NCBI RefSeq assembly: GCF_002104515.1
Contig: NZ_NBOE01000004.1
Location: forward strand, 62,001 to 126,000
DNA from: Colwellia polaris
GTDB lineage: Bacteria; Pseudomonadota; Gammaproteobacteria; Enterobacterales; Alteromonadaceae
Direction: 5' to 3'
DNA length: 64,000 bases
Part shown: positions 33,178-50,810 of the stretch, piece by piece
Position numbering within the stretch: the stretch's first letter is position 1
Layout: every line of letters begins with the position of its first letter
The notes under the pieces: model-generated
What the model saw: the letters and a program-made list of their open reading frames with translations, nothing else
Database searches by the model: none
What the model was told of the DNA's origin: nothing
Translations under genes and position numbers: made by a program

Positions 33178-33746
33178 TTTGCTGAGCTTACATGCCTTAC
33201 ATTTAGTTATTAACGCTCATTGGCGTTACTCACATTCATGTATAACGGTTGCTTTTTTTTATTCACCTCGGATTAATTAGCAAATAAAAATTATATTTTT
33301 ATCAAAAATAAATTCATCGAATTAAGCTAGCCCTTGCCAAATATAGCTTATGTTTTTTTGTTATTTCTAGGTGTCATAAAAGGGTAAAAATAGTTTAATA
33401 ATTGTCTGGTAATGGTGCTGTTTTCTGGTAATCTCTTAGCTCGCTAATTTTTATTGTTCGTTAATTGAACAAGTAAATCTAAGCTTGGACATTTATTTAT
33501 CCACATAATATAAAAATAATAAAAAATATGTGAAAAGGATTTCTGACTTACCTTTTTCCTTATATAACAATTAATTAAAATACACTTGCCGTAAAGTTCG
33601 CCAGATCTTTAGGGGGTTTTCCTGTGCTTTTCAACATACTTATCCACAATTTCGGTTATTTTTGTGACTAAATATAATGAAGTGCTAGAGAGAATTTGCC
33701 GATTATGGCATGCTTACCCCATCTTTCTTCTAGTTATAAAATTATC
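33178..33746. promoter_or_regulatory. Long AT-rich polA upstream region with two DnaA boxes
   Basis: No gene in this stretch of about 570 bp. Two exact consensus DnaA boxes TTATCCACA lie at 33497-33505 and 33640-33648, both on the plus strand, 143 bp apart. The flanks are very AT-rich (for example 33506-33530). A weak -10-like TATAAT sits near 33672. Replication-linked control of polA is possible; an origin is less likely because dnaA, mnmG and mioC are not near. Confidence 0.55.
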
Positions 33747-36634: not shown

Positions 36635-36890
36635 AGTTTTATTCCTTCATTTTATTTATCCTGAACTCTGGATGATCAGTGCTTGATACTCAAGAGAGTC
36701 AAAAGCTTAGATAGTAAAGTCAATGCTTAGCTGGGTGAACATCACGAATAGACACCATCAATGCTTCTTTCTATGCCATTTCCAAAGCAAAACGTTTATC
36801 AATAGCGTGCTATTTATCGACTTTTGAACACAGATAATGGGTTCAAAGGTAATTAAATAACTAAAAATGTAAAAAAATTACAAAATGAGC

Positions 36891-36920
36891 TTTACATACT
36901 TAGAGCTGTTACTCTATAAT
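36891..36920 (+). promoter_or_regulatory. Sigma70-type promoter of sRNA copy 1
   Basis: -35 TTTACA (36891-36896), 18-bp spacer, -10 TATAAT (36915-36920). The spacer holds the inverted repeat TAGAG...CTCTA around CTGTTA. The same arrangement, with the same 18-bp spacer, is found on the minus strand at 50726-50755. Confidence 0.8.
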
Positions 36921-36926
36921 TACCTT

Positions 36927-37018
36927 GTTTCCAAATTTAACACTTGTTGTGAAAGTTTGAATTTAAGCTTCCCCATATAGCTTTTGAGTCGATAACTTAG
37001 TTGTCGACTCTTTTTTTT
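36927..37018 (+). ncRNA. Candidate small RNA, copy 1 of a two-member family
   Basis: A free-standing transcript of about 92 nt is predicted from a consensus-like promoter to a strong terminator: GAGTCGATAAC (36986-36996) pairs with GTTGTCGACTC (37000-37010), followed by eight T. No open reading frame of useful length. An internal hairpin AAGCT/AGCTT presents loop TCCCCATAT (36966-36984). The paralogue at 50631-50719 shares the promoter, 5' GTT, TGTTGT and AGCTTCCCC, while the terminator stems differ. Enterobacteria carry Spot 42 RNA (spf) after polA, but I see no Spot 42 sequence match here. C-rich loops in other sRNAs often pair with Shine-Dalgarno sites; function here is unknown. Confidence 0.75.
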
Positions 37019-37149
37019 GCTTGAAATATGAGTAAGTAAATTATGAACCGAAAATATACTTAGCACAGATAAAATTTAAAGTTGTAATATAATTACACAA
37101 AAACTTAAGTGGGTGCTGGTAAGTAACGAAAGACTGAGGAAAGTTTACT

Positions 37150-38610
37150 TTATTTGTTTTTGTATGAAAGCATGGTTAAGCACAAGTTAAGGTGCTCGAC
37201 TAGTGCAGAACAAAGATCAAAATCTGTACTAGAAATCTCTTTATCATGTTGAAAAACTTGTGCGGTAATTACACCTATCGGTGTTTGCGCCACTTTAATT
37301 GGGCAAATTATTACTGAGCCTTTAACCATAAACTCGGCAATTTCACCGGTAATGAATTGATACCATTTAGCTTCTTGGCGATCTTTTACTAAAATGGCTT
37401 GGCCATTATCCATAGCGTAGCTAAAAACATTATTAGTTCGTACAAGAGAAAACTTGGTATTTATGTCTGATTGTTTTCCGGTTATATCGTATGTAAAACG
37501 TGATTTAATCGCCTTTTTATCATCAACAACTAAAAATAAACTGCAATGTTCGAAAGCAAATATTGTTGACATAGCTTGCAAGGTTAATTGTATAAACTCT
37601 GTTAAGTCGGTCGACGATTTAAGTAAGGTATTGAGCTTACTATAAGTACTAAGCAAATTAATTTCTTTCTCAGGATTAGGCTTTAAAACTTGGTACTTAT
37701 TACCTTGGAAGTCACCTTCTTTTGGCAAAGGTTTAATATGCTTGGTTAAAGCCGAAGCACCGTACGATGCTAGTAGTTTGTTAGCCCTTTCACGTAAATG
37801 CTCAATTTTCAGGACTAACTGTCGAACATTTAAGCCAGTTAACTTCGCTATATCTGTTAACAGTTGCTGAAACTCTTCTGCGCTACAGCTTGGATTTGCA
37901 ATTGTGTTACTGAGCTTATCCGCAAAATAAATTATTTGAATTTCAATCGTTCGACTTTTAGGTTTATCTAAAGCTTTTAATAATAAATCGCTTAAGCCCC
38001 ATGTTTTAACAAGTTCAGTACTAAGCTGTGAAAAATCGCAGCCAATTTCATTAATGCATTTTTGACGAAAGCTTTCTGTGGCCATATCGTTATGCGAGAT
38101 CAATTCTTCGGCAGACTCTCCACCTACAATCCAAAAGGCAGTTTCGCCTATTCGATAGAGCATTGCTGCTAAATAGAGTTCTTCCTGAGTATCTTCTGCA
38201 TATTGTGGTGCCATCATTTTGGCTAATAGCCCGGCATAAAAGGAGCTCGCCATTGATTGTGTTAATTGATGGTAAATTTTAGGGTTAAGTTCTTTATTTG
38301 ATAACAGTCCTTCAACTAATTTAGAGGTAAGGCAAATGTTTTTTACTGACCTAATCCCCAATATCACTGCAGCACGAGAAACAGTATTTACCTTATTAAC
38401 ACTAAAGTGTTGCACACTATTAGCCACTTTAAGCAGACAAGAAGAAAGCGCTTGATCATGCAAAATTGCCTGACTTAATTTAGGTAAAGACGATTTATCA
38501 TCATTATTAAATTTGTCCAGCATTTTAGCTGTAGAGGTGATAGCAGGCAGTTCACTTTTAGCGATAATATCAACCCAATGTTCAGCTGAAGTCTGCGGCA
38601 GGTCTTTCAT
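37150..38610 (-). CDS. HDOD domain protein with C-terminal GAF-like domain
   Basis: Cytosolic signalling protein of 486 aa. The N-terminal HDOD domain (about residues 10-210; LPKLSQAILHDQALSSCLLKVANS, VSRAAVILGIRSVKNICLTS) is an HD-related fold without the catalytic HD pair. The C-terminal half (about 315-480; LLKSSTDLTEFIQLTLQAMS, FSYAMDNGQAILVKD) is GAF-like. HDOD proteins often act in stress, motility or c-di-GMP networks; the specific role is unknown. GGAG precedes the ATG. Single-gene unit. Confidence 0.8.
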   Translation of the reverse strand: MKDLPQTSAEHWVDIIAKSELPAITSTAKMLDKFNNDDKSSLPKLSQAILHDQALSSCLLKVANSVQHFSVNKVNTVSRAAVILGIRSVKNICLTSKLVEGLLSNKELNPKIYHQLTQSMASSFYAGLLAKMMAPQYAEDTQEELYLAAMLYRIGETAFWIVGGESAEELISHNDMATESFRQKCINEIGCDFSQLSTELVKTWGLSDLLLKALDKPKSRTIEIQIIYFADKLSNTIANPSCSAEEFQQLLTDIAKLTGLNVRQLVLKIEHLRERANKLLASYGASALTKHIKPLPKEGDFQGNKYQVLKPNPEKEINLLSTYSKLNTLLKSSTDLTEFIQLTLQAMSTIFAFEHCSLFLVVDDKKAIKSRFTYDITGKQSDINTKFSLVRTNNVFSYAMDNGQAILVKDRQEAKWYQFITGEIAEFMVKGSVIICPIKVAQTPIGVITAQVFQHDKEISSTDFDLCSALVEHLNLCLTMLSYKNK

Positions 38611-38886
38611 CTCATTGCTCCAAGTGTTGTTAAGCTCTATTTAGGCTTTTTGATCGAGCGTAACATATTTTCTAATAAAGTAACTGAATATCGATTAAAC
38701 AGTGGTTTCTAGCGCGCCATCAGTCGCTTACCTATTAGTTCAAAAATATAGGGTTTATCGGTAAACAGCGTTACTAAATTTTACAATATTTTTAGCAAAA
38801 TATAACAAACAAGCTATTGTGCTTGTTGTCTATTTAGTTAGTATTGAGATAACTCAATATAATAGTTGTACCTAAAGGTGAATATT

Positions 38887-41736
38887 TTGAATAAATGGAT
38901 GCTACCCTTGTTATGTCTGTGTTTAACGGCATGTGAAAACACTAAACAAGCAGCGACTAAAGAGCCAGCAATAACAGTACCTGGCATAACCTTTGTTGAG
39001 CGTGTAGACAGTAAAGCTGGAAAAACAGTAATTCCCTATCAGAAATATGTATTAGATAACGGTTTAACACTGATACTTCATCAAGATAACTCTGACCCAC
39101 TCGTTCACGTTGATATGACTTACCATGTTGGCTCGGCTCGCGAAGATATTGGCAAGTCTGGCTTTGCACATTTTTTTGAGCATATGATGTTTCAAGGCTC
39201 AGAAAATGTTGCAGACGACGAGCATTTTAAAATAGTGACTGAAGCTGGTGGTACCATGAACGGTACAACCAACAGTGACCGAACAAATTACTTTCAAACA
39301 GTACCCGCTAACCAACTTGAAAAAATGTTATGGCTTGAAGCTGACCGCATGGGTTTTTTAGTTGATGCAGTCACCCAAGAAAAATTTGAAATACAGCGTG
39401 AAACCGTCAAGAACGAACGCGGTCAAAATTACGAAAATCGTCCTTATGGATTATTACGCGAACGTGTAGCGGAAGCTATGTATCCTGTTGGTCATCCATA
39501 TTCATGGCAAACTATTGGTTATATCGACGATTTAAATCGTGTAAATGTTAATGATTTAAAAGCCTTTTTCTTACGTTGGTATGGCCCTAACAACGCGACT
39601 TTAACCTTAGGTGGCGACTTAAATGTCGCTGAAACCTTAGCTATGGTGAACAAATACTTTGGTAGCATTCCTCGTGGTCCTGAAGTTAACATGCCTGAAA
39701 AACCGCAATTTACTATAGACGCAGATCGTTATATTTCTATGGAAGATAATGTGCACTTGCCTTTAGTGTATATGTCTTATCCAACGGTAAGTGTTAGGCA
39801 TAAAGATGAAGCGGCATTAGATTTGTTGTCGAGCATTTTAGGTGGTGGAAAAACGTCATTATTGTATAAAAACTTAGTGAAAAATCAGCTAGCGGTGCAA
39901 GCCTCAGTAAGTCACCCATGTGCTGAGCTCGCTTGTACTTTTAACCTGCTAGCCTTACCTCACCCGGCTTCTGGTAAAACCTTAGCAGATATGGAAAAAG
40001 TGATTCGTGATACTCTAGTCGAATTTGAAGCACGTGGTGTTGAAGATGACGATTTAATTAAAGCTAAAGCTGAAATGGAAGCAGGTTTTGTGTTTGGTTT
40101 GCAAAGTGTTGCCGGTAAAGTAAGTCAGTTAGCGGCGAATGAAACTTTCAAAGGCAACCCAAATTATATTGAACAAGACATCGCTCGCTATGCCAACGTA
40201 ACTAAAGCTGATGTTATGCGTGTTTATAAAAAATATCTTAAAAATAAACATGGCGTGATCATGAGTATAGTGCCAAAAGGGCAGTTGGCATTTGTTGCCG
40301 CTCCTGATAATTTCGTTGCACCTAAACGAGTGCTTCCAACACTTGAAAGCGCTACCGCCCAAAATTTACAAGTCCGTAAAGCAAAAGATGACTTTGATCG
40401 CAGTGTAACTCCAGTTGCTGGCGCAAATAAAGCCGTTGAAGTTCCTCAAATGTGGCGAGAAACTTTTGCTAACGGCATTAAAATACTCGCAACGCAAAGT
40501 ACTGAAACACCAACAACGTCAATGTTGATAAAAATTCCTGCAGGTCATTACTTTGAGCATAAAGAAAAGGCAGGCACAGCATCATTGTTAGCGGCCATGT
40601 TAAATGAATCTACTACGCAGCGAAGCGCAGAAGACATGAGTAAAGCGCTGCAAAAGCTTGGTGCCTCGGTTAACATTTCAGCAGGCACGCAATATTTATC
40701 GATTAATATAAACGCCTTAACTAAGCACATTGATGCCACACTTGCGTTAGTGTATGAAAAGCTTACGCAACCTGCGTTCTTGCCAAATGAATTTGATCGT
40801 AATAAAAACAACGCGATTCAAGGCGCAATTAATGGCAAAAAAGATGCAGGCTATTTAGCGGCAAATGCTTATCGCCAATTACTACATGCAGACAACATTG
40901 CGGCAACGTCTAGTAATGGTTCAGAGGCGTCATTAACGAATATTGCACTAGCCGATGTTAAAGCACTTTATCAACAACAAGTTAAAGCTAAAGGCAGTGA
41001 AATAATACTGGTATCAGATTTAGAGAAAACAGCGGTATTAAAGTCTTTAAGTTTATTTAATGCTTTAACAGGTGCAGCAAAACCCTTGTTATTAGACTTA
41101 CCTGAATCTAATGCTAAACGTGGAGTTATTTACTTAGTTAATAAAGATAACGCAGCACAATCGGTAATTCGCATAGGTAAGCGCTCACTTACGCAAGACA
41201 TCACAGGCGAGTACTATCGTGCTTATTTAATGAATTTCCCGCTAGGTGGTGCTTTCAATAGCCGTATTAACTTAAATTTACGAGAAGATAAGGGCTATAC
41301 CTACGGTGCAAGTTCGTATTTCTATGGTAATAAATTTTCCGGCACATTTACCGCCAGTGCAGAAGTACGTGCAGACGTTACCGATAAATCGATTGTTGAG
41401 TTTGTTAAAGAAATTAAACGTTACGCAGAGCAAGGTATAAGTGATGAAGAGCTAGCCTTTATGCGCAATGCCATTAACCAAAAAGATGCCTTAAAGTATG
41501 AAACTCCGGGTCGTAAGTTAAGCTTTTTAGCACAAATTTTGGAGCACGACTTAAGTGCAGACTTTGTTAAAGAGCGCAATAATATAGTCGCCAATATTAG
41601 CAAGGCAGAGATTAATTCCTTAGCGAAAAAACACTTAAACTTAAGTGAGATGTTAATGGTAGTGGTTGGCGATGCTAACACCTTAAGGCCTCAGCTAGAA
41701 GCGCTAGGTTATCAAGTGATTAGTTACGAAATCTAG
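38887..41736 (+). CDS. M16 family zinc peptidase, lipoprotein
   Basis: Large periplasmic peptidase of about 949 aa with two M16 repeats. The start TTG 38887 gives a lipoprotein signal (MNKWMLPLLCLCLTAC) behind AAGGTG; upstream in-frame TTG 38866 and GTG 38878 are weaker. First repeat: inverted zinc motif HFFEH (FAHFFEHMMFQGSENV) and the downstream Glu region TVKNERGQNYENRP. Second repeat (about residue 530 on) lacks the zinc motif, as usual for the inactive half, and contains NLREDKGYTYGASS. Resembles the two-domain periplasmic pitrilysin-like peptidases of Alteromonadales. Confidence 0.9.
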   Translation: MNKWMLPLLCLCLTACENTKQAATKEPAITVPGITFVERVDSKAGKTVIPYQKYVLDNGLTLILHQDNSDPLVHVDMTYHVGSAREDIGKSGFAHFFEHMMFQGSENVADDEHFKIVTEAGGTMNGTTNSDRTNYFQTVPANQLEKMLWLEADRMGFLVDAVTQEKFEIQRETVKNERGQNYENRPYGLLRERVAEAMYPVGHPYSWQTIGYIDDLNRVNVNDLKAFFLRWYGPNNATLTLGGDLNVAETLAMVNKYFGSIPRGPEVNMPEKPQFTIDADRYISMEDNVHLPLVYMSYPTVSVRHKDEAALDLLSSILGGGKTSLLYKNLVKNQLAVQASVSHPCAELACTFNLLALPHPASGKTLADMEKVIRDTLVEFEARGVEDDDLIKAKAEMEAGFVFGLQSVAGKVSQLAANETFKGNPNYIEQDIARYANVTKADVMRVYKKYLKNKHGVIMSIVPKGQLAFVAAPDNFVAPKRVLPTLESATAQNLQVRKAKDDFDRSVTPVAGANKAVEVPQMWRETFANGIKILATQSTETPTTSMLIKIPAGHYFEHKEKAGTASLLAAMLNESTTQRSAEDMSKALQKLGASVNISAGTQYLSININALTKHIDATLALVYEKLTQPAFLPNEFDRNKNNAIQGAINGKKDAGYLAANAYRQLLHADNIAATSSNGSEASLTNIALADVKALYQQQVKAKGSEIILVSDLEKTAVLKSLSLFNALTGAAKPLLLDLPESNAKRGVIYLVNKDNAAQSVIRIGKRSLTQDITGEYYRAYLMNFPLGGAFNSRINLNLREDKGYTYGASSYFYGNKFSGTFTASAEVRADVTDKSIVEFVKEIKRYAEQGISDEELAFMRNAINQKDALKYETPGRKLSFLAQILEHDLSADFVKERNNIVANISKAEINSLAKKHLNLSEMLMVVVGDANTLRPQLEALGYQVISYEI

Positions 41737-41812
41737 CTTAACTGATTTGACTTAACTTAACTAACTTTAGCTCTAACTCTATGAATATATGGCAGTTAAA
41801 GCTGTTGTAAAT

Positions 41813-41840
41813 AAAGGCTACCATTTGGTGGCCTTTTTTA
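41813..41840 (+). terminator. Terminator after the M16 peptidase gene
   Basis: AAAGGCTACCA (41813-41823) pairs with TGGTGGCCTTT (41826-41836) with one T-G wobble and a TT loop, followed by T residues. It lies between the peptidase gene and the convergent transporter gene. Confidence 0.8.
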
Positions 41841-41976
41841 TCGATGAAGAAAGTGCTTTCGCCACGCTATTTATCATTAAAACATATACGTTATTTTGAA
41901 TGATGCTTGCCTGATTAATATGGTCGAAACAAGCTGAACATTCGTAGCTCATCAAATGTTGGCGCTATTTCATAAG

Positions 41977-42855
41977 TTACAGCGCATTATGTTCGTTATT
42001 TGAAGGTTTAGCTTTTATTTGATTAAGTAATAAGGCAGCGAAAATAATCCCAGCGCCAATACTTAACCTGAGTATGTCAGCCTCTGTATTCCATATCAGC
42101 ACGTTAACAACAATGCCTGCTGGAATAAGTAAATTATTCATTGCTGCTAATGTTCCGACATTGACAAGCGTTGCACCTTTATTCCAGCCAAAATAGCCTA
42201 AACCGGAAGCAACGATACCTAAGTATATTAGCACCCCCCACTGAGTTGGCGTGCTGGGTAATTTATCGCTATTGCCAAATAACACATAACAAACAGAAGC
42301 GACAATGAATGCACCAATAAAAAACCAGCCGAATACGGTTTTGTGGTCGAGTTTACTGTCGATCATTAAGTGCTTGTAGGTTACTTGCCCTGTGGCAAAG
42401 CACATGTTGGCGGCTTGCACGAGTAACAAACCTACCAAGAAGTTGCTGTTAATGCTTTCGTAGCGAATAGCTAACGCACCACATACCGCAATAATAGCGA
42501 TAAGAAAAAACCGAGGATTAAAATGCTTTTCAAGGGCATCATTAAGCAGGGTAATATAAATAGGGGTCATCACGGTAAATAATAAGACTTCGGGCACCGA
42601 CAAATATAAAAAGGAGTGGTAGTAAAAGCTATACATTACGCCAAGCTGAACTGCGCCAATAAGCATCAGTTTTAAAGCTAAGGCCTTGGGTGTTTTTTTT
42701 AATTTTAAAAACGGTAAAAAGACTAAAGTTGCCAGCGCAATGCGCATTAAAACGCTAAACCAGGCATCAACTTGGCCTGCTAAATAAACGCCAATTAAAC
42801 TGAATGAAAATGCCCACAATAGGGTCACTGCAAGTAAATAGCCCATAAATATCAT
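41977..42855 (-). CDS. EamA/DMT superfamily transporter
   Basis: Inner-membrane protein of 292 aa with ten predicted TM helices in two EamA repeats (first about residues 1-135, second about 145-285). Seen: YLLAVTLLWAFSFSLIGVYL at the start, RIALATLVFLPFLKLK, and the second-repeat ending LLIPAGIVVNVLIWNTE...GAGIIFAALLLN. DMT members export amino acids, amines or other metabolites; the substrate cannot be read from sequence. A second ATG at 42846 is an equally possible start. Confidence 0.88.
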   Translation of the reverse strand: MIFMGYLLAVTLLWAFSFSLIGVYLAGQVDAWFSVLMRIALATLVFLPFLKLKKTPKALALKLMLIGAVQLGVMYSFYYHSFLYLSVPEVLLFTVMTPIYITLLNDALEKHFNPRFFLIAIIAVCGALAIRYESINSNFLVGLLLVQAANMCFATGQVTYKHLMIDSKLDHKTVFGWFFIGAFIVASVCYVLFGNSDKLPSTPTQWGVLIYLGIVASGLGYFGWNKGATLVNVGTLAAMNNLLIPAGIVVNVLIWNTEADILRLSIGAGIIFAALLLNQIKAKPSNNEHNAL

Positions 42856-43035
42856 CGTTAAATCATTAATGGCGACAGTTTATCTCTTATAAAAAATAAA
42901 GTCTCTTTGTTGGGCTTTGAAAAGCATAACTATCCCAGCAGCATTATTACTAACAGGTGCCTGAATTCATTTATTGATTTATCATTTAATTATCGTATTC
43001 TGAATGAATATTTTTACTTATTTGGTGAAATTGTT

Positions 43036-43206
43036 TTGAAAAAAATAGCACAAGGCCTTTTATTGTTGGGCGTAATTTTTAGTTTGTCGGGCTGTATTGC
43101 GGCAACGGTTATTTCTACCGCGGTTGATGTGACTACGACCGTAGTGGGTGGCGCTGTTGATGTTGTGGATACGGTTACGCCAGATATTATTGATGACGAA
43201 GAGTAA
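43036..43206 (+). CDS. Small lipoprotein
   Basis: The 56-aa product starts at TTG 43036. The signal peptide with lipobox LSLSGC (about residues 15-20) is clear; the mature part is only about 36 residues, valine/threonine-rich (TAVDVTTTVVGGAVDVVDTV) and ends in acidic DDEE. The longer in-frame reading from 42907 lacks a sensible N-terminus. The TTG choice rests on the MKKIAQGLLLLG-type signal start and GGTGA upstream. No named family recognised. Confidence 0.65.
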   Translation: MKKIAQGLLLLGVIFSLSGCIAATVISTAVDVTTTVVGGAVDVVDTVTPDIIDDEE

Positions 43207-43270
43207 CCAATTGGCGAGCCTAGCAATAAGCAAACTACATTTGCCTACTGCTGGTTAAATTAAAAGCGAC

Positions 43271-43300
43271 AGCGTTGTCAGTTTTTACACCGACAACGCT
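43271..43300. terminator. Hairpin between convergent genes
   Basis: AGCGTTGTC (43271-43279) and GACAACGCT (43292-43300) form a 9-bp stem. No T-run follows on either strand, so intrinsic termination is uncertain, although the site between two convergent genes suits a bidirectional stop. Confidence 0.45.
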
Positions 43301-43336
43301 GACTAATAACGCAAACATTTGATATAACGTTATTGT

Positions 43337-44860
43337 TTATGGCTTACTTTGATATTTCGCAGGGGTAGTTTTATTCGGTAATGTTGCTTTTAAAAACTCA
43401 CGAATATCTTGATTCGAAGCTTCTAAATCTTGGTAGCGCAAATACATCATGTGGCCACTTTTATAACCTTTAAAAGACAGTCTGTCTTTCATTTTTCCGC
43501 TTGGATCAAGCTGCGACAAGGTATATTTAGCATCGAAATAATTAGTCGCACCATCGTAGTAACCTGATTGAATCATAACGTTTAAATACGGGTTTTGCGC
43601 CATGGCTAAACGTAGGTTTTTACCTGTGTTGTTGTTGCTTCTATCCCATGGATGAACGTTGCCAAACATATTATATTTAACATCGGTTTTATAATTAAGC
43701 TCTTCACGTAAATAGTAGTTTATAGCCGGTGTAAAGCTGTGTAACCATGAGGTAAGCTCTGCGTTATAGTCTGGTCTGCTACCGGTAACTTTTTCATCAA
43801 TGCCTAAATAGCGTGAGTCTAAACGACCCACGGTTTGTTCGCGTTCACGCAGTATTTCTTTCCAAAAGTAAGAGGCTTCAATATCTAAATTATTGCGTAA
43901 TACTTCTTGTAACGACAAGCCAGAATATCGGGCAACTTGTTTAGCTATGCGCAGTTTTTCATCGGCGGCAATAAAGCCACCTTTAGCAAGGGCTGGTAGA
44001 TATTGCTCGACAGTGAACTTTTCAATTTCAGGTAATATTTCTAATAAGTCTTTATTTTGTAAGTCACTGGCTAACGCTTTGTGATACCAAGCTGTTGCTG
44101 CAAAGTAAGGTAAGCGATTTGCTGATTTTACTGGTCCTTCACGTTTTATACCTATATCGGTAGGAGAGACTAAAATAACGCCGTTTAAATACATCCACTG
44201 GCGAGATTGTAGCTCTAATGCTAAACCCGAAACACGGGTGGTTCCGTAGCTTTCACCAATAAGGTATTTAGGAGACTGCCAACGATTATTGCGAGTTACA
44301 AAGGTATTTACCCAATCAGCTAAGTATTTAACGTCGGCATTTACCCCAAAGAACATTTCTTTTTGTTCTGCCTTTGACGGCATTTTGCCTTCTTTATTAG
44401 GTAAAACTCGTGAATAACCGGTATTAACTGGGTTAACAAAAACGATATCCGCGGTATCTAAAATTGAAAATTCATTAGCTTTTACACCGTAAGGCTGTAA
44501 TGGAAAACCTTCACTATCAACATTTAGCACTTTAGGGCCAGTGTAAGCTACATGCATCCACACAGAAGCTGAACCAGGACCGCCATTAAAAGATATAAGT
44601 AAAGGACGCGCCGCTCTATTTTTTACTTTCGAACGTTGGTAATAGGTATAAAAAAGGCTCGCAATTGGGTTGCCTTCTTCGTCCCAAACAGGCTGTGTAC
44701 CAGTAGTTGCGGTGTAGTCAAACGATTTACCTTTAACTTTTGTGCTATGGCTAGTGGTTTTGCTTTCATCAATAGCAATTTTGCGCTCAAACTCTGCATT
44801 TGCTAGCGGCGATAGCAACATGAGTAACGCCGATAAGGTTATAAAATGTCGATATGTCAT
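43337..44860 (-). CDS. S10 family serine carboxypeptidase-like protein
   Basis: Exported peptidase of about 507 aa. Signal peptide (about 1-22, LLSPLANA). Alpha/beta-hydrolase motifs of S10: oxyanion loop SFNGGPGSASVW (about residues 88-99), nucleophile in GESYGTTR, acid in VMIQSGYYDGATNY and the catalytic His in YKSGHMMYL. Such proteins are common in marine gammaproteobacteria and probably trim peptides in the periplasm. ATG 44860 is chosen over the preceding GTG 44863. Single gene. Confidence 0.92.
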   Translation of the reverse strand: MTYRHFITLSALLMLLSPLANAEFERKIAIDESKTTSHSTKVKGKSFDYTATTGTQPVWDEEGNPIASLFYTYYQRSKVKNRAARPLLISFNGGPGSASVWMHVAYTGPKVLNVDSEGFPLQPYGVKANEFSILDTADIVFVNPVNTGYSRVLPNKEGKMPSKAEQKEMFFGVNADVKYLADWVNTFVTRNNRWQSPKYLIGESYGTTRVSGLALELQSRQWMYLNGVILVSPTDIGIKREGPVKSANRLPYFAATAWYHKALASDLQNKDLLEILPEIEKFTVEQYLPALAKGGFIAADEKLRIAKQVARYSGLSLQEVLRNNLDIEASYFWKEILREREQTVGRLDSRYLGIDEKVTGSRPDYNAELTSWLHSFTPAINYYLREELNYKTDVKYNMFGNVHPWDRSNNNTGKNLRLAMAQNPYLNVMIQSGYYDGATNYFDAKYTLSQLDPSGKMKDRLSFKGYKSGHMMYLRYQDLEASNQDIREFLKATLPNKTTPAKYQSKP

Positions 44861-44986
44861 CACAATGTTCCCTAGGTTAAATTTACTTTATCTTGAGACT
44901 ACGACAGCAAAATTAAAAAATCATATTTAAAAGTTAGAACGAGTAATTATAGCGATTAATAACCGTATACCTGTTTAGCAGCGCAC

Positions 44987-45012
44987 AAGCTTCGTTTTAT
45001 AAAGCGAAGCTT
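44987..45012 (-). terminator. Possible hairpin at the end of the HutD-like gene
   Basis: AAGCTTCG (44987-44994) and CGAAGCTT (45005-45012) form an 8-bp stem overlapping the stop codon of the minus-strand gene. There is no U-tail on the minus strand, so it may be a stability hairpin and not a true terminator. Confidence 0.35.
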
Positions 45013-45592
45013 AAATCGCACAACGCCTAAGATAAACAATAATCAAATGTTCGCCCGTTATCGCAACATTATCTGCCGTTAAGTCGGTTATTTTTACTAA
45101 ATGTTGGCTAGGTACAAGGGTAACTTCTTGCGTGCTTTTTGTCGTGAGAGTTGTGTCGCTAAATAAACTGTAGACAAAGCATAAGTCGCTTTTTTCTAAT
45201 ATATGGTTGGTAGTATTTTTATGACAGCTAACCTTACTATGAAACGCTGAAGTTCGGGCAATAACGTTAAAGTCGGTTATTTCATTAGTATGTAGATTAC
45301 CAATGGTTTTATTGCCGCCGTCAAAGGTGGCAACATCAAGTAAGTTTTTTAAACGGTCAATTTTGTTATCGTTGTGCTGCAGGTTAATGCCATCACCTTC
45401 AATTAAAATTAAGTTGCGCGTGTAACCAGTAAAGTTAGAAAAAACGCCATCTTCAACCACACTTGCCATACTTAAGCGCCAGTCGAAATTTTCTAAAGTA
45501 CCGCCAGGGTTTATCGCCATTTCAACTGTTTCGCCTTTGCCGTTTTTCCAAGGTACGGTTTTAAATTGAGTAGGGTGAATAATTTCGATCAT
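45011..45592 (-). CDS. HutD/Ves family protein
   Basis: The 193-aa cupin-fold protein starts with MIEIIHPTQFKTVPWKNGKGETVEMAINPGG (split; residues 1-31), the hallmark of HutD/Ves. FDWRLSMASVVEDGVFSNFTGYTRNLILIEG follows. HutD is linked to histidine utilisation in pseudomonads and Ves to cold-responsive growth in E. coli; no hut genes are nearby. The start at 45592 is chosen because it matches the family N-terminus and has GGA about 8 bases upstream; ATG 45601 and a start at 45661 are in frame. Confidence 0.85.
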   Translation of the reverse strand: MIEIIHPTQFKTVPWKNGKGETVEMAINPGGTLENFDWRLSMASVVEDGVFSNFTGYTRNLILIEGDGINLQHNDNKIDRLKNLLDVATFDGGNKTIGNLHTNEITDFNVIARTSAFHSKVSCHKNTTNHILEKSDLCFVYSLFSDTTLTTKSTQEVTLVPSQHLVKITDLTADNVAITGEHLIIVYLRRCAI

Positions 45593-45837
45593 ATGAGGCA
45601 TTCCGAATAAAAAACGAATATAAAATGAATAAAGCAATGTGCTGATCATAACGCGAAACAAGGTTGAATACTTACAACAAGCTATATTTTACCGGTGAAT
45701 TTTTACAGAAAACATAACTTGTTACGTATTGTAAAAGTTTATAACAATAATTTAATTGCTTAACAAATTTTGCATTGATAGCATGCGCACTTTCTTAGTT
45801 TGATTTCATTTTTCTAGAAGAATAAAAGGATATTATT

Positions 45838-46332
45838 ATGTTTAAAAAATCACTTATTGCGCTTTCTTTACTGGCATTACCTTTAACTGCCTCTGCTAAC
45901 TGGTCGGCGGGCGGCGGTTATGCAAACTTGTCTGATGAAGATCTTTCGTTAGGTGTTATCTATGGTTCAATTGCTTACGAATTTGCTCAAGAGGGCAGTA
46001 AATTTTCATTTATGCCAGAATTGCGCTTAGGTACGGGTATTTCTGACGATAACATGGACGGCGTTAAGCTTGAAGTAGAAAGGTTCACCGCTCTTTCTGT
46101 TCGTGGACAGTATAACTTCGATAATGGTTTCTACGCTTATGCCATGCCTTCATATGCAAACTTAGATGTTAAAGCTAGCTATCGTGGTGCATCTTATAGT
46201 GATGACGAATGGGAGCTAGGCTTTGGTGCTGGTGTTGGTAAGAAATTAAACGACAAAACCAGTGTTGAAGCTTCATTTGAAAATTACGATGGACTTGACG
46301 TATTTACTGTTGGTTTTAAATACTCATTTTAA
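45838..46332 (+). CDS. Small outer-membrane beta-barrel protein
   Basis: The 164-aa product has a signal peptide (about 1-20, LTASA) and an eight-strand-like barrel (GGGYANLSDEDLSLGVIYGSIAYEF; WELGFGAGVGKKLNDKTSVEASF), ending FTVGFKYSF with terminal Phe. It resembles the OmpA-like/OmpW-size porin-family barrels; no specific function is recognisable. Preceded by AAAGGAT and followed by a strong terminator, so it is a single-gene unit. Confidence 0.8.
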   Translation: MFKKSLIALSLLALPLTASANWSAGGGYANLSDEDLSLGVIYGSIAYEFAQEGSKFSFMPELRLGTGISDDNMDGVKLEVERFTALSVRGQYNFDNGFYAYAMPSYANLDVKASYRGASYSDDEWELGFGAGVGKKLNDKTSVEASFENYDGLDVFTVGFKYSF

Positions 46333-46372
46333 GCGGCTAATTTAAGGGTTAACTTTTAAATTATTACGAACA

Positions 46373-46397
46373 GGGAAGCCATTGAGCTTCCCTTTTT
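46373..46397 (+). terminator. Terminator after the small barrel gene
   Basis: GGGAAGC (46373-46379) and GCTTCCC (46386-46392), loop CATTGA, then five T. Confidence 0.85.
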
Positions 46398-46501
46398 ATT
46401 GAGAAAATAAAATCACACTTTTATTTAAAAGCTAGATCAAAAAAGCAGTGATAACCACTACTTTTTAAACATTATCCTACAGGCGTTTAACCCGTACAAT
46501 A

Positions 46502-47122
46502 TTACTTTAAAGATGACATATATTGCGATAATGCTGTGATTTCTTCATCAGTTAAATTAGCCGCAACACCTTGCATCATACCGTTAAGGTCATTATTACG
46601 TGAACCGTTACGAAATTTTTCTAACTGAATTTTTAAGTATTCAGCATTTTGGCTTGCAAGGGCAGGGAAACCAGCACTTGGCATACCTTTACCATTAATA
46701 CCATGACAAGCAACACATGCAGTAACTTCCATTTCAGCGTTGCCACCTAAATAAAGTTTTTTGCCTAAAGCATCTGCGTTACCCGTACCTGCTGTTATTT
46801 CTTGGCTAGCATAAAATGCAGCAACATCGGCCATGTCTTGTTCGCTAAGTGCCATTGCCATGCCACCCATTACAGGGTCAACACGACCAGATTTACCACC
46901 TGATGTCATACCTTGCTTAAATTCAACGAGTTGTTTTACTAAGTAACTAGCGCTTTGACCCGCTAATTTAGGGTACATAGGTACAAGGCTATTTCCGTCA
47001 GCACCATGACAAGCAGCACACATTGCTGATTTGTTTTTACCTGCTTCTGCATTACCTTCTGCCGCATTGGCGGTAGCAATTGCACTTAATCCTAATAAAA
47101 TAGTAATGATAAATTTTTTCAT
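46502..47122 (-). CDS. Diheme cytochrome c4-type protein
   Basis: Periplasmic electron carrier of 206 aa. Signal peptide (about 1-20, ATANA). Two heme sites CAACH (about residue 35) and CVACH (about 137), each followed by a G-ADG or G-ING turn. Axial Met candidates lie in the VDPVMGGMAMALSE and NDLNGMMQGVAA regions. Two similar domains of about 90 residues give the c4 architecture, which donates electrons to terminal oxidases. A four-heme relative lies just upstream on the same strand. engB neighbours this cytochrome pair, as in other gammaproteobacteria. Confidence 0.92.
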   Translation of the reverse strand: MKKFIITILLGLSAIATANAAEGNAEAGKNKSAMCAACHGADGNSLVPMYPKLAGQSASYLVKQLVEFKQGMTSGGKSGRVDPVMGGMAMALSEQDMADVAAFYASQEITAGTGNADALGKKLYLGGNAEMEVTACVACHGINGKGMPSAGFPALASQNAEYLKIQLEKFRNGSRNNDLNGMMQGVAANLTDEEITALSQYMSSLK

Positions 47123-47274
47123 TGGTTTACTCTCTACTTGTCGTAAACACGATCATGGGTTTACTGCTAAAATTTGTTAACGTATTGCTTCTGCATTCTA
47201 CACGAATTTAATGATTGTGAAATAATGCGGAGAAAAAAATCAATCAAATCTTTGATAACGTCCAGTTTAAAAAC

Positions 47275-47303
47275 AAAAAAACCGCAATGAATGCGGTTTT
47301 TTT
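47275..47303 (-). terminator. Terminator between the two cytochrome genes
   Basis: AAAAAACCGCA (47275-47285) and TGCGGTTTTTT (from 47292) around ATGAA. It ends the four-heme gene on the minus strand, and A/T runs on both sides make it bidirectional in form. The diheme gene downstream must therefore have its own promoter. Confidence 0.85.
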
Positions 47304-47321
47304 AATAACGTTAAAACTAGC

Positions 47322-48548
47322 TTACTTCATTGAAGCCATGTACTTAGCAAGCTCATCCATATCACTTTCTGATAGTTTAGAAGCAACGCTTTGCATCATG
47401 GTGTTGTAATCGTTATTACGCTCACCTTTTTTGAAGCTCATTAATTGCGCTTTTAAGTATGTTTCATTCTGGCCAGCAATTGTAGGGAAACCAGCTTTAT
47501 TCATACCTTTACCATTTACGCCGTGACAAGCAACACAAGCTGTAATTTTGCGTTTTACGTTACCACCAAAGTAAAGTTTTTTACCGATTTCAGAGCCGGC
47601 TAACTCAGCCGTTGCTACTTTTTGTGCAGCATAATAGCTAGCAATTTCTAGCATATCTTGTTCGCTTAGCGCTGCAGCCATTGGGGCCATTACTGCGTTT
47701 TCACGTGTTCCAGCTTTAAATTCTTGTAACTGTTTTATTAAATAATCAGCGCTTTGACCTGCAAGTTTAGGGTACATAGCAACAGAGCTATTACCGTCTG
47801 CGCCATGACAAGCAGCACAAGTAGCAGACTTAGCTTTACCGGCAATAACTTCAGCAGTTATTGGCGCTGCAGGCATTACTCTACGTGAAACTACGTTGGC
47901 AACTGCTGCAGGGTCAGCAAAATAAGCGGCCATATCAGCTATGTCATCTTTGGTCATGTTGCCAGCAAATTGATTCATTGCGTAGTTATCACGACTTTTG
48001 TTTTTAAAGTTCATTAACTGTTTAGCAATATACTCTGGGTGCTGATTAGCTAAATTTGGGTAAATCAGTACTTCACTATGACCTTCAGTTCCGTGACAAC
48101 CAATACATGACGCAATATTGCGAGAAGGGTCGCCAAGTTCATATAAACTTTTACCTGCAGCTGGGTCTGGTACATAAGCTACTGGTGCAGCACTACCTGT
48201 AGCGCTTGCATTATCAGCGCCTGAACCTTGGCTGGCACCGTCACGAGGTAAAGCTGAAAAATATGCAGCAACGTCAGCCATATCTTGCTCAGATAAAGGC
48301 GCTGCCATTGGGCTCATAAGTGGGTCTTTGCGATCGCCTGATTTAAAAGCCTTTAATTGTTTAACAATATAATCAGCATGTTGGCCTGCTAAGTTGGGGA
48401 ATGTATCGCTTGCGCCAATCCCGTTAGAACCATGACACGCAGCACAAGTAGCTGCTTTAGTTTTGCCTGCATCTGCATCGCCCGATGCGGCTACAGCAAA
48501 ATTAATACTTAGAAGTGTTAAAATTAAAGAAGTTAAAATATGTTTCAT
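47322..48548 (-). CDS. Tetraheme c-type cytochrome, duplicated c4 architecture
   Basis: The 408-aa exported protein has four heme sites: CAACH (about residue 35), CIGCH, CAACH and CVACH. A signal peptide ends near AVAAS. Each heme domain resembles c4 half-domains (MSPMAAPLSEQDMADVAAYF; MAPMAAALSEQDMLEIASYY), and the second half closely matches the neighbouring diheme protein, so it looks like a c4-c4 fusion by tandem duplication. A Ser/Gly/Ala-rich linker (about 105-130) separates the first two domains. Typical c4 has two hemes and about 200 aa, so this length is unusual. Confidence 0.88.
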   Translation of the reverse strand: MKHILTSLILTLLSINFAVAASGDADAGKTKAATCAACHGSNGIGASDTFPNLAGQHADYIVKQLKAFKSGDRKDPLMSPMAAPLSEQDMADVAAYFSALPRDGASQGSGADNASATGSAAPVAYVPDPAAGKSLYELGDPSRNIASCIGCHGTEGHSEVLIYPNLANQHPEYIAKQLMNFKNKSRDNYAMNQFAGNMTKDDIADMAAYFADPAAVANVVSRRVMPAAPITAEVIAGKAKSATCAACHGADGNSSVAMYPKLAGQSADYLIKQLQEFKAGTRENAVMAPMAAALSEQDMLEIASYYAAQKVATAELAGSEIGKKLYFGGNVKRKITACVACHGVNGKGMNKAGFPTIAGQNETYLKAQLMSFKKGERNNDYNTMMQSVASKLSESDMDELAKYMASMK

Positions 48549-48743
48549 AACTAAACTCTCAACATGCTTTGGTGTTTTTTATTGAATGCAATCAATAAGC
48601 CGGAAAATCGGCAACATCATACACTATTAAAGCACCTTAGAGATATTTTTAGCTAATTTTTTTAGCAAAAACTGAATACAATTGCATCTTTAATGCGAAA
48701 AAACGATATAATGCCGTTTTTACTTACATAGTTGGATCTAAAC

Positions 48744-49400
48744 TTGTCATCTACAGCCATTCATCTTAGCAAAGCGACCTTTACACTTAGCGCACCCGAT
48801 ATCCGTCGTTTACCCGCAGATAGTGGTATTGAAGTTGCATTTGCAGGTCGCTCTAACGCAGGTAAATCAAGTGCGTTAAATACATTAACTAATCAAAGAA
48901 GCTTAGCGCGTACCAGTAAAACACCAGGTCGTACGCAGCTAATTAATATTTTTGAAATTGCAGAAAATAAGCGTTTAGTCGATTTACCCGGCTACGGATT
49001 TGCTAAAGTGCCTATGGAAATGAAGAAAAAATGGCAAAAAGCTTTAGGTGAATATTTAGAAAAGCGTGAATGTTTAAAGGGATTGGTTATTTTAATGGAT
49101 ATACGCCATCCGTTAAAAGATCTTGATATGGACCTTATTCAATGGGCTGCAGACGGTGATTTACCGGTATTAGCTTTATTAACAAAAAGCGATAAACTTT
49201 CTCAAGGTAAAGTAAGTGCACAAGTACTTGCCGTTAAAAAAGAACTCGCAAAACTCAATGCTGACATTAAAGTGCAGGCGTTTTCATCATTAAAGCGCAG
49301 CGGTTCAGAGCAAGCTGATAAAGTGATTTGTGAATGGTTTCAAGATGAGAATATGCAAGAGCTGAACGAATTAAGCGAAGGCCCTTATTCAGAAGAGTAA
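48744..49400 (+). CDS. engB: Ribosome biogenesis GTPase EngB/YsxC (YihA)
   Basis: Essential GTPase for 50S assembly. 218 aa from TTG 48744 ([17 protein letters not shown]); TTG 48732 is an alternative. GGA lies 7 bases upstream of the chosen start. G1 GRSNAGKSS (about 32-40), G2 region TPGRTQ, G3 DLPGYG, G4 TKSD and G5-like SSLK are all present. Divergent from the cytochrome pair, a common arrangement in gammaproteobacteria. Confidence 0.95.
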
Positions 49401-49424
49401 TTAGCTAAAATCAAAGATATAAAA

Positions 49425-49455
49425 AAACGCCTCGAAGATTCGAGGCGTTTTTGTT
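49425..49455 (+). terminator. Terminator after engB
   Basis: AAACGCCTCGAA (49425-49436) and TTCGAGGCGTTT (49439-49450) pair perfectly with a GA loop; T-rich on the right and A-rich on the left, so usable from both engB and the convergent msr operon. Confidence 0.9.
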
Positions 49456-49505
49456 TTAGGTGCTTTATTAAGCATCAAATTTAAATTTTAAGCTTAAGGT
49501 TAAGA

Positions 49506-50003
49506 TTACTGCTCAGGTAGTACCCAATCAGCTCTTGGAAAATGACAAGTGTACCCGTTAGGCATGCGCTGTAAATAATCTTGATGCTCAGCTTCGGCTT
49601 GCCAAAATTCACCAACAGGCTCAAGTTCTGTAACCACTTTACCAGGCCATAAACCTGAAGCATTTACATCACCAATCGTTTTTTCAGCAACCATTTTTTG
49701 CTCTGCGCTAGTGTAATAAATAGCCGAACGATACTCGCTACCTAGATCGTTGCCTTGTCGGTTAACTGTTGTAGGATCATGTATTTGAAAGAATAATTCT
49801 AAAATTTTACGATAACCGATCACCGTATTATCAAAATAAACTTCAATAGCTTCAGCATGGTTACCATGATTTCGATAAGTGGCATTTTCAACATCGCCAC
49901 CCGTATAACCTGCACTGGTTTCTGTAATGCCAGGCAACCTACGAATTAAATCTTGCATACCCCAAAAACAACCACCCGCTAAAACCGCTCGTTCAATGGT
50001 CAT
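49506..50003 (-). CDS. msrA: Peptide-methionine (S)-S-oxide reductase MsrA
   Basis: Repairs methionine-S-sulfoxide in proteins. 165 aa. Catalytic motif GGCFWGM at residues 10-16, then [28 protein letters not shown] (split across the conserved core), [16 protein letters not shown] and YRSAIYY. The C-terminal resolving cysteine is probably in TCHFPRADW. Downstream of msrB by 3 bp in one operon. Confidence 0.96.
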
Positions 50004-50006
50004 ATT

Positions 50007-50450
50007 TTATCCCTCTACCTGTTCTAAGTAAGCTTCGTAACCTTCAGCGACCATATTATCGCGATGAATAAATTTTAAAGAAGCTGAGTTTATACAATAC
50101 CGCAACCCCCCTTTTTCAGCAGGGCCATCGGTAAAAACGTGCCCCAAATGACTATCGCCATGTGTAGAGCGAACTTCTGTACGCACCATGCCATGTGTGG
50201 CATCAGTAAGTTCATTTATATGAGTGCTTTCAATAGGTTTACTAAAGCTTGGCCAGCCACAGCCAGCGTCAAACTTATCAGCTGATGCAAATAAAGGTTC
50301 GCCTGAAACAATATCAACATAAATACCGGGTGCAGTATTTTCTAATAGTTCACCAGTCCAAGGACGTTCAGTTCCGCTTTCTTGCGTAACCCGATATTGC
50401 TCAGAGGTAAGCGCAGCAATAGCATTATTTGATTTCGTATATTTTGGCAT
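50007..50450 (-). CDS. msrB: Peptide-methionine (R)-S-oxide reductase MsrB
   Basis: Reduces methionine-R-sulfoxide. 147 aa. Seen: [50 protein letters not shown] and catalytic Cys in [11 protein letters not shown]. The two CXXC zinc pairs of many MsrB are absent, so it is the zinc-free type. AGGA precedes the ATG. First gene of the msrB-msrA operon. Confidence 0.96.
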
Positions 50451-50630
50451 AAGAGATCCTAAGTAACTCGGTAACGATAAATGGTTTATGGCTCAGTAGC
50501 TTCAGAAATATTATCTTGATAAGCAACTTGAAACAATAGACCGATGAAACAGTAAATAGTGTGCAAACATTCATGTATTTAGTTTAAGCAGAGTACTTTG
50601 ATAGCAAGAGAATCATCAAATTTTAGACAT

Positions 50631-50719
50631 AAAAAAACCGATGTCAAAAGGTAACATCGGTATAGAAGCTTGGGGAAGCTAGAATTTAAAAATTAATACA
50701 ACAGGTCTCAAAAGAGAAC
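50631..50719 (-). ncRNA. Candidate small RNA, copy 2 of the family
   Basis: A minus-strand transcript of about 89 nt is predicted. Its terminator is ACCGATGT/ACATCGGT (50654-50661 with 50637-50644), then seven U. The 5' end forms a TCTC-TTTT-GAGA hairpin. The core hairpin AGCTT-CCCC-AAGCT (about 50667-50680) displays CCCC in a perfect loop. It shares with copy 1 the promoter, 5' GTT, TGTTGT and AGCTTCCCC. There is no minus-strand reading frame upstream to which this terminator could belong, which argues for an independent RNA gene. Confidence 0.75.
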
Positions 50720-50725: not shown

Positions 50726-50755
50726 ATTATAGAGTAACCACTCTATAAAAGTAAA
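50726..50755 (-). promoter_or_regulatory. Promoter of sRNA copy 2 with internal palindrome
   Basis: On the minus strand: -35 TTTACT (50755-50750), 18-bp spacer, -10 TATAAT (50731-50726). The spacer and start of the -10 box contain ATAGAGT-GGTT-ACTCTAT, a perfect 7-bp inverted repeat, in the position used by repressors or MerR-type activators. Copy 1 keeps TAGAG...CTCTA in the same place. Confidence 0.75.
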
Positions 50756-50810
50756 GCCTTTACTCTAAAAATATTTTGATATTTTTAAATTTGTTGGTTT
50801 GGTTATGTCG

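Follow-up and report, generated by a model that had tools for sequence, protein, structure and literature searches.

Analysis of the window, the whole 64-kb stretch of DNA considered here, showed the presence of two small RNA genes, A, located after polA, and B, located beside engB (Table 1). The original prediction described two paralogous small RNA genes of about 90 nt, each running from a TTTAC(A/T)-N18-TATAAT promoter to a terminator and sharing a TGTTGT block and a core, with differing terminators. All of these features were found in the sequences: the RNAs are 92 and 89 nt long, have the TGTTGT block and AGCTTCCCC in common, and match each other at 74% over 86 nt, promoter included (E=2.8e-7). 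Judged by their sequences, A and B are conserved RNA genes of ~90 nt with sigma70-type promoters and terminators.

Table 1. Features of the two small RNA genes and their surroundings in the window.
Feature	Position	Strand	Basis and remarks
polA (DNA polymerase I), flanks the Spot 42 locus on one side	33696..36491	+	Pfam PF00476, 542 bits
engB/yihA-type GTPase, flanks the Spot 42 locus on the other side	48732..49400	+	Pfam PF01926; name engB from size and synteny
Small RNA A (polA-linked copy)	36927..37018	+	~92 nt
Small RNA B (engB/msrBA-linked copy)	50631..50719	-	~89 nt
A promoter, sigma70-type: TTTACA (36891-36896), 18 nt, TATAAT (36915-36920)	36891..36920	+	sequence; conserved in alignment
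B promoter: TTTACT (50755-50750), 18 nt, TATAAT (50731-50726)	50726..50755	-	sequence
A palindrome TAGAG-N6-CTCTA, overlaps spacer and -10	36901..36916	.	sequence
B palindrome TAGAG-N6-CTCTA	50730-50745	.	sequence
A HexR-type box TGTAAAAAAATTACA, 15-bp palindrome, starts at -59 of A	36868..36882	.	sequence, conserved position
Second HexR-type box TGTAATATAATTACA, perfect match	37083..37097	.	156 nt after A start, past terminator
B operator TTAGAGTAAAGGCTTTA, overlaps -35	50752..50768	.	at most 2 mismatches in 28/32 B copies
A 5' hairpin (GUU...AAC)	36927..36941	+	3/4 family pairs changed on both sides
A linker CUUGUUGUG, contains conserved UGUUGU, candidate seed	36943..36951	+	alignment
B linker CCUGUUGUAUUAAU, candidate seed	50692..50705	-	alignment
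A hairpin 2, C-rich loop AAGCUUCCCCAUAUAGCUU	36965..36983	+	from folding
B hairpin 2, CCCC loop AGCUUCCCCAAGCU	50667..50680	-	from folding
A terminator, intrinsic	36986..37018	+	from folding; ends in T8
B terminator, intrinsic	50631..50661	-	from folding and family covariation

The folding z-scores are -5.3 for A and -5.0 for B, with no equally stable sequence among 200 shuffles of each. In the family structure 98.2% of cells are paired, and changes on both sides were found in 12 of 17 pairs, a value reached by none of 500 shuffles. All nine pairs of the terminator covary across the family; both-sided covariation is absent from hairpin 2 in the family alignment, and at the position of the 5' hairpin the minimum free energy structure of A alone favours a different fold. 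The loop of hairpin 2 is CCCC in all 32 B copies and is represented by CCUC (25 of 29) or CCCC (4 of 29) in the polA-linked copies. Within the genus, the mean pairwise identity of the RNA body is 0.76 for A (n=14) and 0.88 for B (n=17), that of the 90-nt promoter region of either RNA is 0.67, and that of the flanks is 0.24-0.33. The body plan, consisting of a 5' hairpin, a UGUUGU linker, a C-rich loop and a terminator, suggests sibling base-pairing sRNAs; the U-tailed terminator, a feature looked at for the Hfq-dependent sRNA type, is present.

As anticipated, no plausible protein is encoded: start-to-stop ORFs of at least 10 codons occur in 13 of 29 A copies and 9 of 32 B copies. With no ORF conserved, a small protein was rejected. 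The Rfam search proposed with the prediction gave no match in the 64-kb window at gathering thresholds and weak matches only at permissive ones. When the covariance model of the A/B family, R1, also proposed at that stage, was scanned over the GTDB family (246 genomes), it matched in 76 genomes belonging to 18 of 52 genera, with two copies in 59 genomes. The core pattern was found in 55 contig stretches; 3 of these are named Alteromonadaceae bacterium, and the others are named after Colwelliaceae genera (Colwellia, Thalassotalea, Thalassomonas, Litorilituus, Cognaticolwellia) or as Colwelliaceae bacterium. One match lies outside the family (G355, L286; 46.1 bits, E=2.6e-4); it does not keep the UGUUGU core, seems by eye to cover the 3' end of a coding sequence together with its terminator, and was taken as chance.

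Among sRNAs of carbon metabolism, Spot 42 is a textbook case; it is repressed by cAMP-CRP and found at one locus across a wide range of gammaproteobacteria. The remark in the original prediction that Spot 42 follows polA proved to be the key one, since A and B occupy a split Spot 42 locus. In eight loci of one genus (g76) the order is polA>RNA>/<engB, as at the Spot 42 locus and in the same orientation; in other genera, that of the window included, the locus is split, A following polA and B lying next to engB. Spot 42 itself was not detected in the Colwelliaceae lineage by searches with RF00021 and with the 5' block. RF00021 gave no match in the genome of the window at E<=1, in agreement with the lack of a Spot 42 match noted earlier, and the Spot 42 5' block GUAGGGUACAG (GTAGGGTACAG) was found in none of 70 Colwelliaceae loci. 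At E<0.001 RF00021 matched in 47 genomes, and the overlap with the 76 R1-positive genomes consists of one (G146), where the match is weak and lies elsewhere; approximately half of the genomes of the family contain neither an R1 match nor a Spot 42 match at E<0.001. A and B differ from Spot 42 in having no sequence match to it, no Spot 42 5' block and a different core.

The promoters of A and B are similar only from about -35 to +1, and the exact palindrome TAGAG-N6-CTCTATAAT is present in the whole genome only at these two genes. The promoter conservation originally predicted thus holds for this core but not upstream of it, where A has a HexR box and B a different operator. The 15-bp palindrome of A has the form TGTAATNNNATTACA in common with the sites of the HexR regulon, and hexR is present in the genome (519.5 bits against a cut-off of 296). 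The HexR motif is given as TGTAATTAAATTACA in the accessible part of PMC11906056. With at most 2 mismatches, the box was found at 28 of 30 polA-linked copies (shuffled mean 0.70), 23 of the boxes being at -56 to -60 and 5 at -69 to -81, and at only 3 of 32 B copies (shuffled mean 0.64, maximum 3). In related genera, Spot 42 carries the box in 43 of 48 cases, in 42 of them at -56 to -60; thus the box of A is mostly at the start distance of Spot 42. Boxes of this type in the genome of the window also precede zwf/hexR, gapA, gltB and malQ. Genome-wide the motif is not enriched (with at most 1 mismatch, 29 sites per strand versus 45 in the reversed control), so the case for the boxes rests on position and conservation. 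Among ten HexR-like sites inspected, one falls within a coding sequence; a HexR-like box at 17502, considered as an edd promoter box, was dropped, the genes there being tnsABC-like.

Control of Spot 42 by HexR is predicted for related genera and may extend more widely, since Spot 42 loci of other families contain a HexR-like element at about the same place in 9 of 30 cases with at most 2 mismatches and in 24 of 30 with at most 3. Such control was not found in a literature search, and the accessible portions of the HexR literature name neither Spot 42 nor any other sRNA as a regulon member. The position and distribution of the boxes at A are observed; binding of HexR to them is predicted, as is the direction of regulation. 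The box behind A, present with at most 1 mismatch in 13 of 14 copies in the genus of the window (shuffled mean 0.02), suggests DNA looping there; the exception, L023, also lacks the upstream box. HexR could repress A, rather than activate it, through a loop between the two boxes that flank A ~200-230 bp apart in these 13 copies. We lean slightly against repression: in Vibrio parahaemolyticus, a box lying upstream of the promoter is interpreted as an activating one (PMC11906056, accessible part), and outside the genus the downstream box (<=1 mismatch) was found in only 2 of 15 copies.

Related genera retain Spot 42 at the locus, and many of them contain a second RNA, which lies between Spot 42 and engB and is referred to here as the neighbour RNA. 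Model R2 matches the neighbour RNAs, with a best hit of 34.1 bits (E=0.0017); because of these weak matches 3' of Spot 42, the idea that an unrelated RNA had simply replaced Spot 42 was dropped. Model R3, made from 16 neighbour RNAs, all from outside the Colwelliaceae lineage, was run on 77 Colwelliaceae loci and gave 73 rows with E<=1 (best 4.4e-5), although most rows are at E 0.01-1 and the E-values of the model are rough. Of the 85 copies known in Colwelliaceae it recovers 72 at E<=1 and 20 at E<=0.01; the 13 missed at E<=1 include A of the window, and B of the window was found only at E=0.025. The neighbour RNA and the A/B family are alike in element order and place. With at most 2 mismatches, the operator TTAGAGTAAANACTTTA precedes every one of the 29 neighbour RNAs, as well as 28 of 32 B copies and, among single-locus copies, 11 of 12; it precedes none of the 30 A copies and none of the 48 Spot 42 genes.

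On this sequence evidence, A and B have a homologue in the Spot 42-engB interval of other genera in the GTDB family; one further family probably has it there too. The lineage-specific family of the original prediction accordingly holds for the form seen in A and B and not for the homologue. A family restricted to Colwelliaceae, unrelated to the neighbour RNA and arisen in this locus by chance, would agree with the lack of an Rfam match, with the confinement of R1 and R2 matches to one GTDB family apart from the presumed chance match, and with their names, all Colwelliaceae or Alteromonadaceae bacterium; such an origin appears unlikely given the detection of neighbour RNAs by R2 and of Colwelliaceae copies by R3, and the operator, element order and place as in the neighbour RNA.

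It seems fairly probable that A and B descend from the neighbour RNA and that a duplicate took the HexR-marked slot of Spot 42 in Colwelliaceae. A and B would be siblings derived from the small RNA between Spot 42 and engB of related genera; Spot 42 would have been lost in the Colwelliaceae lineage and the neighbour RNA duplicated there, and other genes would now part polA-A from B-engB. B would retain the operator of the neighbour RNA and respond to a second regulator, while A, because its HexR box is mostly at the same start distance as that of Spot 42, may have inherited the carbon-sensing slot. Through HexR input at its promoter, A would be coupled to Entner-Doudoroff/glycolytic flux. Whether Spot 42 is under HexR control across Alteromonadales-type bacteria, its body having been exchanged in Colwelliaceae for a duplicate of the neighbour sRNA with the HexR input kept, is a broader proposal that we regard as evenly balanced. 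A whole lineage seems to be without Spot 42, with another RNA in place under seemingly the same sugar-responsive switch. If so, an unrelated RNA answers the same carbon signal from the Spot 42 locus, a natural experiment in regulatory replacement in which the input is retained and the effector RNA exchanged.

That A and B are Spot 42 itself, duplicated and diverged past recognition, is already disfavoured and looks improbable. The identical polA/engB locus and orientation, the usual distance of the HexR box and the nearly mutually exclusive distribution of the two families across genomes would all fit it, but the 5' block is missing from the 70 loci, A and B have bodies matching that of the neighbour RNA, an RNA found alongside Spot 42 in other genera, and the operator of B is that of the neighbour RNA and not that of Spot 42. 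The reading of B as a cis-acting leader or attenuator of msrBA is based on the window, where B and msrB share a strand and msrB begins ~180 nt past the end of B. It was rejected by synteny as very improbable, since the gap varies from ~170 to 890 nt across loci of the genus, engB-linked loci of other genera showed no msrBA match, and B ends in a terminator of its own and has its paralogue behind polA.

ErsA of Pseudomonas aeruginosa is presumably located in the same genomic context as A and B. It is termed a functional orthologue of Spot 42 and is sigma22-dependent, according to the accessible part of PMC8395346, whereas A and B have sigma70-type promoters (TTTACA/TTTACT-N18-TATAAT). VSsrna24 of Vibrionaceae, a glucose-repressed second small RNA in the polA-engB interval (PMC3295665, accessible part), shares with the neighbour RNA its place beside Spot 42; set against A and B by description, it is shorter (~60 nt), and six f21 loci, taken for Vibrionaceae, yielded no R3 row at E<=10. 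By description, A and B are also like the neisserial sibling sRNAs NgncR_162/163 (NmsRA/B), which are 78% identical, have three stem-loops and target the ribosome-binding sites of metabolic mRNAs by base pairing (PMC9973317, accessible part); their genes are adjacent in Neisseria, whereas A and B lie apart.

A and B are both probably trans-acting by base pairing: the C-rich hairpin loop would pair with a G-rich Shine-Dalgarno sequence, assisted by the UGUUGU linker, and translation would be blocked. The expected target pattern TGGGGAAGN{1,11}ATG was not enriched in 17 genomes (125 occurrences versus 149 for the reversed pattern). Among 30 loci with the pattern that were inspected, four have an open ORF of at least 60 codons at the ATG, and two of these ORFs resemble TonB-dependent receptors (L327 and, by eye, L331). 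Pfam confirms the one of these that belongs to the genome of the window (C1:237352), treated here as a candidate target and a lead only. At its Shine-Dalgarno site it shows 10 bp with the A loop, and at -42 it shows 9 bp (one wobble) with the A linker, the two blocks not being collinear; in RNAduplex, A beats 200 of 200 shuffles, and B is ordinary (51 of 200 as good). No close homologue of this receptor was found among the rows listed for 16 relatives, where the best has 54% identity over 98 residues in a broken frame and the others at most 36%. GGGGAA or GAGGAAA was found near the start in 5 of 30 receptor loci, and similar-looking receptors in G002, G011, G014 and G015 carry TTGGGGAA near the start.

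The promoter boxes, 18-nt spacers and RNA coordinates of the paralogous small RNA genes A (linked to polA) and B (linked to engB and msrBA), re-read in the sequence, agree with the original prediction for both genes. Both RNAs fold far better than shuffles (z -5.3 for A and -5.0 for B), and conservation in the genus of the window is limited to promoter and RNA: mean pairwise identity is 0.67 for the promoter and 0.76 for the RNA among 14 copies of A, 0.67 and 0.88 among 17 copies of B, and 0.24–0.33 in the flanks. Together, fold and restricted conservation indicate that A and B, as predicted RNA genes, exceed chance. No Rfam family reached its threshold in the window; in 15 loci of relatives only rRNA, tRNA and a cobalamin riboswitch were above threshold.

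Coordinates of the two RNA genes and of other features noted in the window
Feature	Position	Strand	Elements
A, RNA	36927-37018	+	promoter TTTACA, 18 nt, TATAAT
B, RNA	50719-50631	-	promoter TTTACT, 18 nt, TATAAT
Tn7-like genes	13890-17384	-	tnsA/tnsB/tnsC-type
HexR-like palindrome	17502-17516		
Copper/heavy-metal resistance cluster	26797-30882		

Secondary structure was analyzed in 100 distinct copies with 17 pairs. In this alignment, which was fitted to the model and is hence biased towards structure, standard pairs made up 98.2% of the cells, versus 87.5% in shuffles, and both-sided changes were found in 12 of the 17 pairs. Covariation was present in three of four pairs of the 5' hairpin and in all nine pairs of the terminator; it is neutral on hairpin 2, because its AGCU/AGCU stem is nearly invariant. 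All 32 B copies have CCCC as the loop of hairpin 2; A copies contain CCUC (25/29) or CCCC (4/29, including A of the window).

A DNA search revealed A-like sequences in 19 and B-like sequences in 21 of 60 genomes, the genome of C. polaris (G000) included. R1, the covariance model of the A/B family, matched 76 of the 246 GTDB-family genomes, in 18 of 52 genera; 16 positive genomes contain one copy, 59 two and one three. The R1-positive genera are referred to here as the Colwelliaceae lineage. A scan of contigs with the core pattern, which cannot detect most of the B copies in the genus of the window, found 55 stretches, titled Colwellia, Thalassotalea, Thalassomonas, Litorilituus, Cognaticolwellia (five genera that the NCBI taxonomy places in Colwelliaceae), Colwelliaceae bacterium and, in three cases, Alteromonadaceae bacterium. 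Across the order, the model R2 was positive in 9 of 295 genomes, eight of them inside the GTDB family; the ninth, G355, looks like a chance match. In locus L033 (G017:C32:148041) a third, strongly diverged copy follows polA, with a HexR box and without the C-rich loop.

Synteny was read with the proteins of the window as queries. In eight loci of the genus g76, and in L052 of another genus, the RNA follows polA in the same direction and faces engB on the opposite strand; it is present as a single copy in L052 and in five of the g76 loci, and as two tandem copies in L117, L118 and L120. A further g76 locus, L119, contains three copies, but window genes were not matched there. The arrangement in other genera is split: A comes after polA and B sits next to the 3' side of engB, the two being separated by other genes. 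msrBA was seen beside B in loci of the window's genus alone, at a gap of about 170 to 890 nt. We infer the history of the locus from this present-day arrangement. The order polA–RNA–engB is that of Spot 42 (PMC3295665), from which A and B differ by sequence while occupying the same slot.

A search with RF00021 (Spot 42) in 242 genomes of the family gave matches in 128 genomes at E ≤ 1, with one exceeding the gathering score, and in 47 at E < 0.001. Only one of these 47, G146, is among the 76 R1-positive genomes, with 30.8 bits at a different place. All 30 strong Spot 42 loci fetched contain the 5' block and polA upstream, and 27 contain engB downstream; two loci end early, and L172 has no engB within 1.5 kb. 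Of 20 weaker places fetched, 18 are Spot 42 at polA, L208 and L221 being the exceptions. The Spot 42 5' block was absent from all 70 Colwelliaceae loci. Therefore, related genera possess Spot 42, and in the lineage carrying A and B it was not detected. Roughly half of the family genomes gave neither an R1 nor a Spot 42 hit at the thresholds used, the 18 weak Spot 42 places apart.

In other genera, R2 run with permissive E-values matched places downstream of Spot 42; the best match had 34.1 bits (E = 0.0017). There, a second small RNA, the neighbour RNA, with the core TGTTGA...AGCTTCTCCCC (or AGCCTCTCCCC), lies within 800 nt past the Spot 42 start in 24 of the 48 family loci that contain the Spot 42 5' block, and the same pattern follows Spot 42 in all five loci of family f6; the core mostly has a hairpin before it, and another hairpin and a terminator after it. 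The model R3, built from 16 neighbour RNAs with zero Colwelliaceae sequences, was run on 77 Colwelliaceae loci totalling 496 kb, a set without L012 and the short loci L065–L094. Of 73 rows at E ≤ 1, 72 fell on the 85 known copies, and 20 rows were at E ≤ 0.01 (best 4.4e-5); in the window R3 found B at E = 0.025, A being among the 13 missed copies. In 68 loci used for comparison (232 kb), 12 rows reached E ≤ 10, five of which were f6 neighbours (E 0.09–1.5), the best other row having E = 0.097; what places f6 in the neighbour RNA family is accordingly its position, operator and core rather than the score.

Two operator types are found upstream of these conserved genes. Within 90 nt and at ≤2 mismatches, the HexR motif TGTAATNNNATTACA was present in 28 of 30 A copies and 43 of 48 Spot 42 genes of the family, in 3 of 32 B copies, in none of 12 single-locus copies, and in 7 of 29 neighbour RNAs, at a different place (-18 or -68); shuffled means were 0.3–1.0. 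The operator of the neighbour RNA, OP (TTAGAGTAAANACTTTA), was found by the same scan in 28/32 B copies, 29/29 neighbour RNAs and 11/12 single-locus copies, and in none of the 30 A copies or 48 Spot 42 genes (shuffled means ≤0.02). Of the 28 A copies with a HexR box, 23 have its start at -56 to -60, as do 42 of the 43 Spot 42 promoters with the box; the remaining five A copies have it at -69 to -81. Copies lacking a match to polA, engB or msr do not enter these counts. A later check of 16 of them showed eight A-like copies with a HexR box (≤2 mismatches), five B-like copies with OP (≤3 mismatches), and the three L119 copies, with mixed operators. In L119 (G175:C2) the tandem copies are nearly identical; two lack the TAGAG palindrome at -10 and carry a HexR-like box at -58 (1-2 mismatches), and the third has a perfect OP.

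Among the 14 A copies examined in the window's genus, 13 are followed by a second HexR box, 137 to 169 nt from the A start (≤1 mismatch, against a shuffled mean of 0.02); L023 (G003:C31) is the sole copy without either flanking box. Outside this genus, a second box was found for 2 of 15 A copies. In other families of the order (L293–L322), a TGAAAAAAAATTACA-like element lies upstream of Spot 42 at about -58 to -60, matching the HexR palindrome in 9 of 30 loci at ≤2 mismatches and in 24 at ≤3; a HexR input to Spot 42 is possible beyond this GTDB family. After Spot 42 in L303 and L304 (family f10), a different RNA body comes after the operator TTAGAGTAATTACTTTA, which is therefore older or wider than the RNA family.

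The genome contains hexR (NF008451, 519.5 bits, cut-off 296). Known HexR targets include zwf, pgl, edd, eda, glk, pykA and glutamate synthesis (PMC5343134), and the published motif is TGTAATTAAATTACA (PMC11906056). Of the 29 genomic motif sites at ≤1 mismatch, 10 were inspected. One separates zwf from hexR, one lies 35 nt ahead of gapA, one precedes gltB and two precede malQ; two more are those at A, one falls within a coding sequence (C5:130542), one is upstream of tnsA, and the last is C23:29369. The names zwf, edd, glk, pykA, gapA, gltB and malQ were assigned by NCBIfam, eda and pgl by Pfam. Genome-wide the motif is not over-represented (29 per strand versus 45 in the reversed control), which counts against HexR. 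The palindrome upstream of tnsA is perfect and perhaps due to chance; the Tn7-like genes there have weak NCBIfam matches. The copper/heavy-metal resistance cluster includes a two-component system and a CopA-type multicopper oxidase.

By place, the nearest described RNA to A and B is VSsrna24 (PMC3295665), named again in PMC13250501; ErsA is set apart from them by promoter type (PMC8395346). In some genera (L196, L198, L202, L209 and L212–L214), a sigmaE-like promoter (GAACTT-type, then TCTGA-type, by eye) seems to lie after Spot 42, ahead of another short RNA with TTTCTCTC in the polA–engB interval; this RNA is perhaps ErsA- or VSsrna24-like. Neither A/B nor HexR control of Spot 42 was reported in the titles and abstract openings searched, most subscription journals lying outside this scope, and the available parts of PMC5471319 and PMC11882849 contain nothing on this locus.

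HexR would act on A. A HexR site upstream of the promoter goes with activation (PMC11906056), the sign suggested by the upstream box of A, while the flanking boxes suggest a loop. As the sibling sRNAs NgncR_162/163 pair with ribosome-binding sites (PMC9973317), A and B may, by analogy, base-pair via their C-rich loop and UGUUGU linker. A general effect found no support in the target scan. A candidate lead is the gene for a TonB-dependent receptor (Pfam; G000:C1:237352, L327/L356), the leader of which could pair with both conserved single-stranded blocks of A over 10 bp at the Shine-Dalgarno site and 9 bp at -42.
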